Shown piece after piece: positions 34,162 to 38,747 of a DNA stretch of 62,183 nt (position 1 is its first letter; the number at the start of each line of letters is the position of its first letter). The DNA comes from Pseudomonadota bacterium (GTDB lineage: Bacteria > Pseudomonadota > Alphaproteobacteria > Acetobacterales > Acetobacteraceae), in contig JABBNW010000004.1 in assembly GCA_019352115.1 (NCBI GenBank), forward strand, positions 1 through 62,183, given 5' to 3'. The position numbers and the translations under genes are program-made. The notes under the pieces are model-generated. The model ran no database searches. It was not told the DNA's origin and worked only from the letters and a program-made list of their open reading frames with translations.

Positions 34162-34238
34162 TGGTGCGCCCGGCAGGACTCGAACCTGCAACCAAGCCGT
34201 TATGAGCGGCCAGCTCTAACCAGTTGAGCTACGGGCGC
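34162..34238 (-). tRNA. tRNA with CAT anticodon, probably tRNA-Ile2 (lysidine-modified)
   Basis: A complete 77-nt cloverleaf on the minus strand with encoded CCA. Acceptor GCGCCCG pairs with CGGGCGC; the anticodon loop is CTCATAA, so the anticodon is CAT; the T arm is GCAGG-TTCGAGT-CCTGC. CAT occurs in initiator Met, elongator Met and the minor Ile tRNA whose C34 becomes lysidine. The C1-type mismatch of initiators is absent. Consecutive C4-G69 and C5-G68 pairs, known TilS identity elements, and an Ile2-like variable region favour tRNA-Ile2 over elongator Met. Confidence 0.9.
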
Positions 34239-34304
34239 ATGGCCACCGCATGTGCCCCGGGACGCGCGGGCACGCAAGCGAAACCCCGGATCACGCCGGC
34301 ACGC

Positions 34305-35012
34305 CTATCCATGACCGGCGGGCGGCGGCGCAACGCGAACGATGCCGCCGGCCGGCGCACCGCCAGGCGCCGGCGGTACCAGGTTGATCGCGAACAACGC
34401 CACCACCAGCAGGGCGAACGCGATCGCGCTATTGCGCAGGCATTTCTGCGCATTGGAAAGATGCAGGAACCGCCAGGTGTTCAGGATTGTCGCGGTCCGG
34501 TAGTTCAACAGGGTCCGGAGCGTGAGGGCACGCACGATGTCGTCGGCCCCTCCCGCCGCCTGCATGATCTCCCGCAGCTCCGTCGAACCGACGGTTGGGT
34601 AGCCCAGCCCGCCGATGCTGCGCAGCGCGCTGATCGTCAGCAGTACGGTCTGGATCACGAGGTATAACGCAAGCCCGGCCAACACCGCGCCACGCCAGCC
34701 GGCAAACATGCCGAGGTGGCCGAGCGCCGCCCCGCCCAACGACAGGAGCGCACTCAGGAACGCCTGCGCCACCAACAGGCCCTGCCCGCGCGACAGGATC
34801 GACTCCTGGCGTGCCCGCTCGGTAGCGAAATGATCCTTCGCCTGCGCGTGGATCAGATCGGCGCTGTCCCGCGGCAGCAACCGCAACGCCGCGCTCAGCC
34901 CCGCGGTGTTGGCGATGTAGGTGGGGTTGGCCTCGGCCGCGTTGAGATAGCGCCGGTTGTCCGCGGCCGCGAGCGACAGCGGGAACAAGACGGCAAGGAT
35001 GCGCCGGCACAT
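34305..35012 (-). CDS. Membrane protein of the putative graspetide cassette
   Basis: A 235-residue protein with a short hydrophobic N-terminus (MCRRILAVLFPLSLAAA), a charged helical region (residues about 20-75), hydrophobic segments at about 83-127 (LLVAQAFLSALLSLGGAALG and WRGAVLAGLALYLVIQTVLL) and another at about 195-213 before a proline/glycine-rich tail. No transporter motif was recognised, and it is not an ABC or peptidase-containing exporter. It starts 3 bp after the ATP-grasp gene, so it is almost certainly co-expressed with precursor and ligase. A role in export, anchoring or immunity of the modified peptide is inference only. Confidence 0.7.
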   Translation of the reverse strand: MCRRILAVLFPLSLAAADNRRYLNAAEANPTYIANTAGLSAALRLLPRDSADLIHAQAKDHFATERARQESILSRGQGLLVAQAFLSALLSLGGAALGHLGMFAGWRGAVLAGLALYLVIQTVLLTISALRSIGGLGYPTVGSTELREIMQAAGGADDIVRALTLRTLLNYRTATILNTWRFLHLSNAQKCLRNSAIAFALLVVALFAINLVPPAPGGAPAGGIVRVAPPPAGHG

Positions 35013-35015
35013 CCC

Positions 35016-35963
35016 TCAGCCCCGCGCCCGGTCGCGATCGTCGAGCAGCCCCGCGAGGGTCGCAGCGATCGGCAGGCCGGCGCCCCGTTCCAGCCACCCC
35101 CATTGGCCGGCCGGGTTGGTTTCAAGGAAACAGAAGTCGCCCGCGGGTGTTTCGATCAGGTCGTGGGTCGCGAACAGAAGCGCGCTCCGCGCGCAGAGGG
35201 AGAGGATCATCCGCGCCACCTCGGCCGGCAGCGCGGCCGCCTCGAAGATCGTGTCCGGGGCTTCGCTGCGCCGCCAGTCGATCGGATGCACCGTCGCGCC
35301 CGCCCGAGTGCGGGCGGCGAACACATGCCGACCGACGGTCGTGAGCCGCCATTCTCGCCGCTTCGCCACGCGCTCCTGGAACAGGCCCGGACAGACGGCG
35401 AGACCTGACCAGTCGGCATCGCCGCCCACAACGCTGGTGTAGGCAACCTGCCCCGCCGGATCCCCCAGCGCGCCGAAGGAGATCGCCTTGGTGACCACCG
35501 CTCCGTGCGCTGCAACGAACGCCCGCGCCGCGTCCGGGTCCTGGGTGAGCAGGGTTGCGGGCACGCGGAACCCCGCCTGCTGCGCCCGGGCGGCTTGCAG
35601 GAGGCGATTGCCCGCGAGACGGTCGGCCTCGAACCCATTGACCTGAAGGCCGGGGATCGATTCCAGGAATCCGTCCAGGGCGGTCGCAAGCTCGCGTGCC
35701 ACGAAGTCCCGATACGCCGGCGCCACGTCCTCGAGCACCGCGGGACGGGCGAAGCGACGGTACCAGACGGAATCGATCCCGGCGGCGGCCACGCAGCGGC
35801 CCCGGCAGTCCAGCACCGGGCCGTCCGCGCCGACCGCGATGCGGCAGGACGGCGTTCCGAGTTCATCGGAATTCATACGCAGGTAGGATGCGCCGCGCTG
35901 CTGCAGATGGCGGATCACCGGATCGGCGCCGAGATCCTGGCTGTGCGTGACCACCAGGATCAT
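35016..35963 (-). CDS. ATP-grasp ligase of the MvdC/MvdD (graspetide) type
   Basis: A 315-residue ATP-grasp enzyme. The N-terminal half has SVWYRRF at 65-71, a signature of RiPP-modifying ATP-grasp ligases. The ATP-grasp core shows VTKAISFG with the nucleotide-binding lysine at about 159, FQERVAKRREWRLTTVG at 195-211, IDWRR at 228-232, and ETNPAGQWGWLE at 281-292 holding the magnesium-binding Glu and Asn. The N-P-x-G-Q-W motif is characteristic of MvdC/MvdD enzymes, which form omega-ester or omega-amide side-chain links in a precursor peptide. It starts 21 bp after a precursor-like gene whose leader contains PFLAQFA, close to the PFFARFL recognition motif of microviridins. Confidence 0.88.
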   Translation of the reverse strand: MILVVTHSQDLGADPVIRHLQQRGASYLRMNSDELGTPSCRIAVGADGPVLDCRGRCVAAAGIDSVWYRRFARPAVLEDVAPAYRDFVARELATALDGFLESIPGLQVNGFEADRLAGNRLLQAARAQQAGFRVPATLLTQDPDAARAFVAAHGAVVTKAISFGALGDPAGQVAYTSVVGGDADWSGLAVCPGLFQERVAKRREWRLTTVGRHVFAARTRAGATVHPIDWRRSEAPDTIFEAAALPAEVARMILSLCARSALLFATHDLIETPAGDFCFLETNPAGQWGWLERGAGLPIAATLAGLLDDRDRARG

Positions 35964-35984
35964 GGGCGCCGCCGCCGCCCGGCC

Positions 35985-36302
35985 TCACCGCCCGCGCGGG
36001 GAGGCGAACCGGATGACATCGGGATCGGGCGCAACGGTCACGATATCGGTGCCCAACCCTACCGCCAGGTGTGCAGTCCGGCCGCTTGCTCCACGCACAA
36101 CGTCGGGGTCCGGCTGATCCGCGTCCGTCCTGGTGAGGATCGTGGCCAGGGTTCCGCCAACCCGGGCACCGTCGTCGAGCGCCGGTCGCTCGGCGCCCGC
36201 TCGACGCAGCAAGCCGGCGTCGTCCTGGACATAACGGGGACGGGCAGGCACGTCGGTCGATCGAGCGAACTGCGCCAGGAACGGGGCGGCGAACCGGGGC
36301 AT
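35985..36302 (-). CDS. Candidate graspetide precursor peptide
   Basis: A 105-residue peptide starting MPRFAAPFLAQFARST. The APFLAQFAR stretch (residues 6-14) resembles the helical PFFARFL motif bound by microviridin-type ligases. The C-terminal half is rich in potential donors and acceptors: Thr 51, 54, 57, 59, 76, 85, 89, Ser 73, 101 and acidic residues at 60, 62, 65, 67, 86, 93, 95. Two similar blocks occur: QPDPDVVRGAS (63-73) and APDPDVIRFAS (91-101), each preceded by threonines, so two core modules are plausible. GAGG lies 7 bases upstream of ATG 36302. Identity as precursor rests on gene order and motif, not on a database match. Confidence 0.78.
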   Translation of the reverse strand: MPRFAAPFLAQFARSTDVPARPRYVQDDAGLLRRAGAERPALDDGARVGGTLATILTRTDADQPDPDVVRGASGRTAHLAVGLGTDIVTVAPDPDVIRFASPRGR

Positions 36303-36650
36303 GGCAGCCTCATGTGGATCGGTGGCGGCTATTCCGGAGCCGAAGCCAGGACCGCTTGCGACCCTGCCCGACCCCCTGCTCCACATCCGACGATTTCGGG
36401 CCCGGAGCCTTCGTCCAGCCGCAACGTGTCTGGCGCTTGCCTGTTTGTCAAGCATAAGAAGCAAATCCGACATGCGTCCGAAGCATGGGTCAAAATCGCC
36501 GCGATCCGCCTGGCAGCGGTTTGCCTGCCCGCCGCGGTTCTGGCATAGGCGGGCAACCTTTCGTTCCGTCCGGCTGGCCTTGGCGCCCCGACTTTCTTTT
36601 CCCGCGGCGCTGGGGAAGCCGTCGCTCCGACCACCAGGGGAATATTTCGG
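36303..36650. other. Divergent intergenic region between graspetide cassette and hppA
   Basis: This 348-bp region must hold the promoters of the minus-strand precursor operon and of hppA. It is relatively AT-rich around 36440-36475. A perfect TTGACA box on the minus strand lies at 36451-36446 and a TATGCT box at 36456-36451, but neither has a well-spaced partner, so no promoter is asserted. The hppA ribosome site AGGGGA is at about 36636-36641. No open frame with coding character was seen. Confidence 0.5.
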
Positions 36651-38747
36651 ATGGGCTTTTCGTTCTTCGTCATCATCATCTGCGGGGTACTGGCGCTGGT
36701 CTACGGCCTCGTCAGCGCCCGCCAGGTGCTGGCCGCCGATGCCGGCACGGCACGGATGCAGGAAATCTCGGCCGCCGTGCAAGAAGGCGCCCGCGCCTAC
36801 CTGAACCGGCAATATACCACCATCGCCATGGTCGGCGTCGTGGTGGTCATCTTCCTCGGCCTCACGCTCGGCATCCATGTCGCGATCGGCTTCCTGATCG
36901 GCTCGATCCTGTCCGGTGCTGCCGGCTATATCGGCATGAACGTCTCGGTGCGGGCCAACGTGCGCACCGCCCAGGCGTCGCGCAACGGGCTGGCGGCGGG
37001 GCTCGATATCGCCTTCAAGTCGGGCGCCATCACGGGGCTGATCGTGGTCGGGCTCGCGCTGCTGGGCGTCACGATCTACTACATGATCCTGCGCAGCACG
37101 ATCGCCGGTCCCGACCTGCGGCCGGTGCTGGACTCGCTGGTCGGCCTGTCGTTCGGCGCCAGCCTGATCTCCATCTTCGCCCGGCTCGGCGGCGGCATCT
37201 TCACCAAGGGTGCGGATGTGGGCGCCGACCTCGTGGGCAAGGTCGAGGCCGGCATCCCCGAGGACGACCCCCGCAATCCCGCCGTGATCGCCGACAACGT
37301 GGGCGACAACGTCGGCGACTGCGCCGGCATGGCCGCCGATCTGTTCGAGACCTACGTCGTCACTATCGTCGCCACCATGCTCCTGGCGGCGATCTTCTTC
37401 ACCGGCGCGGTCCGCAACGACGTGCTGATGCTGCCGCTCGGGATCGGTGGGATCTGCATCCTGACCTCCGTCGTCGGCACCTATTTCGTGAAGCTCGGCC
37501 CCGATAATGGGATCATGCGGGCGCTGTACAAGGGGCTTGCCGTCACCGGCGCGCTGTCGGTGGTGGGCATCGCGATTATCATCGAATGGTTCGTGGGCTT
37601 TGCCACGCCACTCGTGGAAACCGGAGCCGCCTCGGTCACCGGGTTCGACCTGTTCGTCTGCGCGCTGATCGGGCTTGGCCTCACCGGCGCGATCGTCATG
37701 ATCACCGAATACTACACCTCGACCGAATACCGCCCGGTGCGCAGCATCGCCAACTCGTCCACCACCGGGCACGGGACCAACGTGATCCAGGGACTGGCGA
37801 TCTCGATGGAAGCCACCGCCGGGCCGGTGGTCGCGATCGCGATCGCCATCATCCTGTCGTACATGATGGCCGGGCTGTTCGGCATCGCCATTTCGGCAAC
37901 CACCATGCTGGCCCTGGCGGGGATGATCGTGGCGCTCGATGCCTACGGTCCCGTCACCGACAACGCCGGCGGCATCGCCGAGATGGCGGACCTGCCGAAG
38001 GAGGTCCGGGTGACCACCGACGCCCTCGATGCGGTCGGCAACACCACCAAGGCGGTGACCAAGGGCTACGCGATCGGCTCGGCGGGGCTTGCTTCGCTCG
38101 TGCTGTTCGCCGCCTACACGCAGGACCTGAAGCACTACTTCCCGAACCTGCACGTGAGCTTCCAGCTCGAAGACCCGTACGTGGTCATCGGGTTGTTCAT
38201 CGGCGGCATGCTGCCCTACCTGTTCGGGGCGATGGGCATGACCGCCGTGGGCCGCGCCGCAGGGTCGGTGGTGGTGGAAGTGCGCCGCCAGTTCCGCGAA
38301 ATCCCGGGCATCATGGAAGGCACGGCGAAGCCCGAATACGGCAAGGCCGTCGATCTGCTGACCAAGGCGGCGATCCGCGAAATGATCGTCCCGTCCCTGC
38401 TGCCGGTGCTGGCGCCGGTGGTGCTGTGGCTGGTGATATGGGCGATCGGCGGCAAGACCCACGCCTTCGCGGCACTGGGCGCGATGCTGCTCGGCACCAT
38501 CGTGACCGGGCTGTTCGTCGCGATCTCCATGACCTCTGGCGGCGGCGCCTGGGACAACGCGAAGAAATACATCGAGGAAGGCCACCACGGCGGCAAAGGC
38601 TCCGACGCGCACAAGGCGGCGGTGACCGGCGATACCGTGGGCGACCCGTACAAGGACACCGCCGGCCCGGCGGTGAACCCGATGATCAAGATCACCAACA
38701 TCGTCGCGCTGCTGATGCTGGCGATCCTCGCAGGCTGGCTGCACTGA
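36651..38747 (+). CDS. hppA: K+-independent proton-translocating membrane pyrophosphatase
   Basis: A 698-residue integral membrane pyrophosphatase with about 16 helices. The catalytic segments are intact: the block around residues 186-226 ([20 protein letters not shown] then DDPRNP and [10 protein letters not shown]), [19 protein letters not shown] at about 430-448, and [18 protein letters not shown] near the C-terminus. Lysine at position 467 in [16 protein letters not shown] marks the potassium-independent, proton-pumping subclass; potassium-dependent enzymes have alanine there. It hydrolyses cytoplasmic pyrophosphate to pump protons outward. The gene for the soluble pyrophosphatase follows 89 bp later. 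Confidence 0.96.

Follow-up and report, generated by a model that had tools for sequence, protein, structure and literature searches.

This analysis addressed whether three adjoining genes of an alphaproteobacterial genome form a graspetide biosynthesis locus, and whether such a locus is of a new kind. The window, which means the whole stretch of DNA that was analysed, was 62,183 nucleotides long. An earlier note, made from the letters alone, had described a 105-residue peptide with the leader motif PFLAQFA, an ATP-grasp ligase with VWYRR and ETNPAGQW that began 21 bp after it, and a membrane protein after another 3 bp. It had taken them for a graspetide-like locus with one ligase of the MvdC/MvdD type and a membrane partner, and had called this arrangement undescribed. 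The gene coordinates agreed with that description, and the graspetide assignment agreed with the ligase models, the leader motif and the Thr/Asp repeats. The three genes are probably a minimal graspetide biosynthesis cassette, in which the ligase would close Thr-Asp ester rings and the 3-TM protein would be the membrane partner. The arrangement itself also occurred in many other loci.

Gene trio and cassette site

The genes were located on the minus strand in the order precursor, ligase and membrane protein. The features of the cassette and its flanks were as follows.

35985..36302, minus strand: precursor peptide gene, 105 aa, with homologues in two other genomes (L002 and L003)
35016..35963, minus strand: ATP-grasp graspetide synthetase, 315 aa, with the PF21068 pre-ATP-grasp domain and the motifs VWYRR, DWRR and ETNPAGQW
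34305..35012, minus strand: 3-TM membrane partner, 235 aa, linked by profile to other graspetide-associated 3-TM proteins
34162..34238, minus strand: tRNA-Met (CAT), which borders the cassette site on the left and is conserved
36651..38747, plus strand: hppA-like proton-pumping pyrophosphatase (named from sequence), the conserved right flank, divergent from the cassette
34239..36515, no strand assigned: stretch without counterpart in congeners, which contained the three genes and nothing else

The cassette was missing between tRNA-Met and hppA in two congeners (G003 and G004). The distance from tRNA-Met to hppA was 211 bp in G004, and that from the tRNA to the conserved hppA upstream region was about 400 bp in G003, compared to 2.3-2.4 kb in the window. 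Since these intervals were short and the unshared stretch consisted of the three genes only, the trio has been gained or lost as one block at the tRNA-Met/hppA site. A ligase search of five congeners, whose assemblies are incomplete, gave no match. As had been stated before, no acetyltransferase, protease or ABC exporter was encoded between the flanking tRNA-Met and hppA. The tRNA was the sole Rfam match, no promoter-like site was found, and the three terminator-like sites that were predicted all lay within genes.

A complete trio with the same gene order was found in two more genomes, L002 and L003. Both were alphaproteobacterial by a class search, and L003 carried the label Nitrosovibrio. 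Their ligases showed 48% and 44% identity to that of the window, respectively, and the membrane proteins showed 33-35% identity over 159-166 aa. The leader and the repeat of both precursors were as in the window, and the leader took the form P-[FV]-L-x-x-F-A. These results provided the homologous peptide adjoining an orthologous ligase that had been proposed as a check, and the 3-TM protein was co-conserved in both genomes. Upstream of the trio, L002 encoded a VWA-domain protein and L003 a CoA transferase, with both names taken from the sequence. Because these neighbours differed, the trio was regarded as the shared unit. A ligase search of about 1,480 genomes gave no trio of the window type beyond these three, and the type is therefore rare. 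It is known from three genomes only, all of which are MAGs or draft assemblies. In addition, plasmids searched by tblastn with the L003 membrane protein gave no match, and a viral-contig search gave no relatives.

Membrane protein and the wider class of triads

The membrane protein had hydrophobic segments at about residues 79-97, 112-130 and 195-213, a cytoplasmic-looking N-terminal helix and a Pro-rich C-terminal tail. It matched no named family. The AF2 model, built with three sequences, was poor (pLDDT 63, pTM 0.49), and Foldseek with this model against BFVD and PDB gave nothing below E 0.1. Since no transporter was encoded at the cassette, export or membrane delivery would be its simplest role.

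Other Proteobacteria, several plasmids and one Leptospira phage also had the layout of a precursor, a single synthetase and a 3-TM protein of about 210-300 aa. The carriers were plasmids of Croceicoccus, Agrobacterium, Sinorhizobium and P. aeruginosa RW109, the Leptospira phage, an unverified 'Bacteriophage sp.' scaffold and the genomes L016, L018, L019 and L021. The cores of these triads were LLTKTxxxQExDDD or TKTSEGIDQSE repeats, and their leaders showed P-F-L, a downstream Y-x-x-E-x-x-x-W-V-V segment and then a Pro-Ile stretch. When the leader profile of the window clade was compared with the leaders of other 3-TM-associated precursors, the score was 23.2 over 44 columns (at most 13.7 in 200 shuffles). 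The membrane-protein profile and that of the LTKT-type 3-TM family aligned over 140 columns with a score of 38.4, where shuffles reached 22.7 at most and the reversed control 14.7. The hhalign probabilities that linked the window clade to the wider family were moderate, at 61-67%, and clearly above those of shuffled controls. The LTKT and L018 3-TM families scored 44.9 against each other (shuffles at most 20.0).

The LTKT-type triads (the Croceicoccus, Agrobacterium, Sinorhizobium and P. aeruginosa RW109 plasmids; G544 and G688) had the same gene order as the window. Their PFLxxxx leader was followed by a YSxExxxWVV-type segment, and leader and 3-TM protein were similar to those of the window clade at the profile level. 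However, they differed in their LLTKTxxxQExDDD core repeats, and their ligases formed a separate clade with support 100/99. When plasmids were searched by tblastn with one of the LTKT-type 3-TM proteins, five records matched, and each match lay in a region that had also yielded a synthetase. The triad on P. aeruginosa RW109 plasmid 1 (LT969519, L059:2623-4609) was LTKT-type with the ligase annotated rimK_1, and the annotated start of its precursor was probably too short.

Several other loci were recorded. Leptospira phage vB_LalZ_80412-LE1 (KF114876, L040:2886-4580) encoded a 37-aa peptide with TKT/acidic motifs, an ATP-grasp synthetase and a 207-aa 3-TM protein (phrog_21292). The record MT835913 (L041), deposited as 'Bacteriophage sp.', held a multi-core triad closest to that of the Croceicoccus plasmid and may be bacterial DNA. 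In L018:1043-3383, a precursor with four near-identical GET[IV][TMV]T.TSEG.DQSE repeats adjoined a synthetase and a 3-TM protein. A deltaproteobacterial MAG (L010:5645-7639) had ETLLT[CK]TAEAKD repeats, a synthetase and a TM protein downstream. Another synthetase was found within the window's own family (L031:1090-2466, G1247), with a candidate 112-aa precursor carrying YYDPKTQTWIG upstream. A triad of a different type was common to Rhizobiales and Azospirillum plasmids (L062:2789-4712, L063:2789-4712, L035:2727-4787 and L064:2789-4608). It consisted of 62-82 aa precursors ending in KK[NQ]D[LV]ETGEDQKG[QE], a RimK-like ligase and a 3-TM protein, whose gene was split or truncated in L064. AbiE lay near one of these triads and a SIR2-family gene near another. 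The similarity of the Rhizobium/Azospirillum plasmid-type 3-TM proteins to the window protein did not go beyond shuffles, and common ancestry with them is therefore not claimed.

The 3-TM protein might also be a membrane-acting effector of the SLATT/PycTM kind, with the modified peptide as its regulator. The peptide could, for example, inhibit a protease, and its loss during infection would release the effector. In that case the cassette would serve as a small module for defence or exclusion and would not make a secreted natural product. PADLOC PycTM effector models matched four of the 3-TM proteins associated with LTKT-type graspetides, with E from 4.1e-7 (best) to 0.036. Related triads occurred on plasmids and in the Leptospira phage, and some adjoined defence genes, among them AbiE, a gene annotated SIR2 and one for a PDC-M01-like ATPase. 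The insertion of the window cassette as a block beside a tRNA gene and the absence of encoded export machinery at the cassette would also fit. However, neither the window membrane protein nor its orthologues in L002 and L003 matched anything in PADLOC, and PycTM or SLATT models did not match them either. The PycTM matches were weak and came from the distant LTKT-type relatives only. In G528, the fragment examined encoded a related TM protein with no synthetase beside it, so that the family may be a generic one of TM proteins. In addition, the genes surrounding the window cassette looked metabolic, without defence character. We consider a conflict system unlikely here. It also seems doubtful, to the same degree, that the pairing is a conserved two-part conflict module across Proteobacteria, on plasmids, in phage and at tRNA sites, with the peptide modulating a membrane effector or target.

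Ligase and precursor

The graspetide cassette remained the preferred reading, and the ligase bore on it directly. VWYRR was located at residue 66 and ETNPAGQW at residue 281, and the enzyme carried the MvdD pre-ATP-grasp domain (PF21068). The ligase scored 228.8 bits with TIGR04187, 191.7 with MvdC, 157.4 with MvdD and 26.8 with RimK. The best of these scores lay below the curated TIGR04187 cut-off of 350. The ligase was under the curated cut-offs of all three graspetide subfamilies, and it is therefore a divergent member outside them. The nearest PDB chains were ATP-grasp ligases (e.g. 5ig8, 7m4s, 9bou, 7mgv and 5ig9), which we take to be microviridin- and other graspetide-type synthetases. 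It was the single enzyme of this type in the genome, which agreed with the earlier proposal. In the tree, the ligases of the window, L002 and L003 formed one clade on a long branch with support 100/100. The L018 ligase was placed as the sister of this clade, with weak support.

Judging from its sequence, the ligase is a graspetide synthetase-type enzyme of the MvdC/MvdD/TgmB lineage and not RimK. Amino acids might instead be added to the small ORF product without cyclisation, by RimK-like glutamylation or tailing. RimK and graspetide synthetases share one ATP-grasp fold, and RimK-family models matched the ligase weakly (3.1e-6). However, RiPP synthetase models scored about 200 bits better, the ligase grouped with RiPP synthetases in the phylogeny that had been suggested as a check, and the pre-ATP-grasp domain and a leader-bearing repeat precursor are typical of graspetides. 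Such a modification is very improbable.

The precursor frame was open upstream, and the ORF listing gave one 919-codon ORF. The start was set at 36302, because the L002 and L003 precursors start alike and a GAGG Shine-Dalgarno-like site was present there. The leader motif PFLAQFA corresponded to residues 7-13, and P-F-L-A-Q-F at residues 7-12 followed the Phhx(1,2)h pattern of graspetide leaders. A second conserved segment, RYVQDDAGLLRRAGAERPALDD, covered residues 23-44, and the core region covered residues 50-105. PDPDVVRGAS was found at residues 64-73 and PDPDVIRFAS at residues 92-101. Comparison of the three precursors gave the full repeat unit T-x2-T-x(3-5)-D-x(1-2)-D-P-D-x-[VIL]-R. The earlier note had seen two PDPDV blocks after threonines. 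Both were present, but they were merely the C-terminal half of this longer repeat, which was intact once in the window. The two copies in the window were as follows.

36093..36143, minus strand: intact core repeat TILTRTDADQPDPDVVR, precursor residues 54-70, with the same pattern three times each in L002 and L003
36009..36053, minus strand: degenerate second core repeat GTDIVTVAPDPDVIR, precursor residues 84-98, from pattern comparison

L002 and L003 each had three clear copies, while the window had one intact and one degenerate copy. In the latter, DPD and one Thr of the pair were kept, while its first Thr and the Asp ahead of DPD had been lost. T-x2-T-x(3-5)-D-x(1-2)-DPD was found in seven of the eight repeats across the three precursors. 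Conserved Thr donors thus stood ahead of Asp acceptors in the core, as in graspetides. The idea that the 105-aa ORF is spurious, with the true substrate elsewhere and only the ligase and membrane protein of importance, can hardly be upheld. In its favour, the genome is GC-rich, the open frame extends beyond the ORF, and the GC3 of the ORF is 0.76, below the 0.84-0.91 of its neighbours. However, the idea was largely refuted by the L002 and L003 homologues in the same place, with common leader, repeats and matching start, and by a test in which the window precursor was shuffled 20,000 times and never gave two or more DPDx[IVL]R blocks.

Expected product and known graspetide systems

The ligase family and the PFFARFL-like leader were common to the window and the microviridins (group 1; MdnA/B/C, MvdC/MvdD). 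However, the window had one ligase, not two, and the TxKxPSD core, the acetyltransferase and the peptidase-containing ABC exporter were absent between tRNA-Met and hppA. The core was thus not microviridin-type, as had been noted before. TgmA/TgmB/TgmC of actinobacteria (TIGR04187) provided the best-scoring curated ligase model, and there too the precursor lies directly upstream of a single ligase. In contrast, the window had no TgmC methyltransferase or TgmA match, its third gene encoded a TM protein, and its ligase stayed at 228.8 bits against the cut-off of 350.

The thuringinin type (group 3) was similar in its single ATP-grasp enzyme, its several core repeats with a Thr pair and then acidic residues, its Phhx(1,2)h-type leader, its uncharacterised membrane protein and its lack of a known exporter. 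The thuringinin core motif is reportedly TxxTxxxExxDxD. The window type was mostly TxxTxxxxDxxDPD-x-[VIL]-R, with one more residue, Asp for Glu, and an invariant DPD and Arg. The thuringinin spacing was matched in L003 repeat 1 only, with Asp. No Bacillus thuringinin locus was among the plasmid matches listed. Makarova et al. 2022 described an uncharacterised membrane-protein cluster (cluster 18) that is specific to thuringinin loci (precursor cluster 13); these loci mostly lack known transporters, and transport was suggested for the membrane protein (PMC8939145). By their published descriptions, thuringinin and cluster 18 resemble the window type. Since the triad layout recurs in many loci and this cluster has been published, the architecture is known in outline, and the claim that one ligase with a membrane partner is undescribed did not hold. 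What looks new is limited to the core sequence and the ligase clade. Carter 2026 graspetide groups 34 and 35 likewise have repeat precursors (PMC13097080). In our best reading, the window cassette represents a core family that is rare and probably new, with a graspetide architecture that is already known, although it may belong to one of the numbered graspetide groups.

We infer ring formation and its connectivity, leader removal, the role of the membrane protein and the final activity. Most graspetides with a characterised activity are protease inhibitors. The ATP-grasp enzyme would bind the N-terminal leader of the precursor through the PFLAQFA helix and the conserved segment after it. It would phosphorylate the Asp side chains of the C-terminal repeats, and the Thr side chains would attack the activated Asp to form omega-ester rings. 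Multi-core graspetides such as thuringinin have two Thr and then acidic residues, with two esters per repeat (PMC12291112). Two esters would be expected per intact repeat of the window type, as in these thuringinin-like peptides, because each has two Thr spaced T-x2-T and then three Asp. By extrapolation of ring number and connectivity, repeat 1 of the window precursor should carry two rings and the degenerate repeat 2 at most one, so that the peptide would lose 36 to 54 Da. The 3-TM protein would be a dedicated partner, most likely for delivery of the modified peptide to the inner membrane or across it, or else for protection of the cell from the peptide.

If the product forms, a repeat core with Thr and Asp only and a fixed DPDx[VIL]R ending would join the graspetide repertoire, and this new core would be made by a single enzyme from a separate clade. 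Export, immunity, scaffold and effector are the candidate roles of the recurring 3-TM protein. Since it is paired with precursor and synthetase in one phage as well as in many genomes, its role becomes a question that a 2-kb cassette would allow to be tested.
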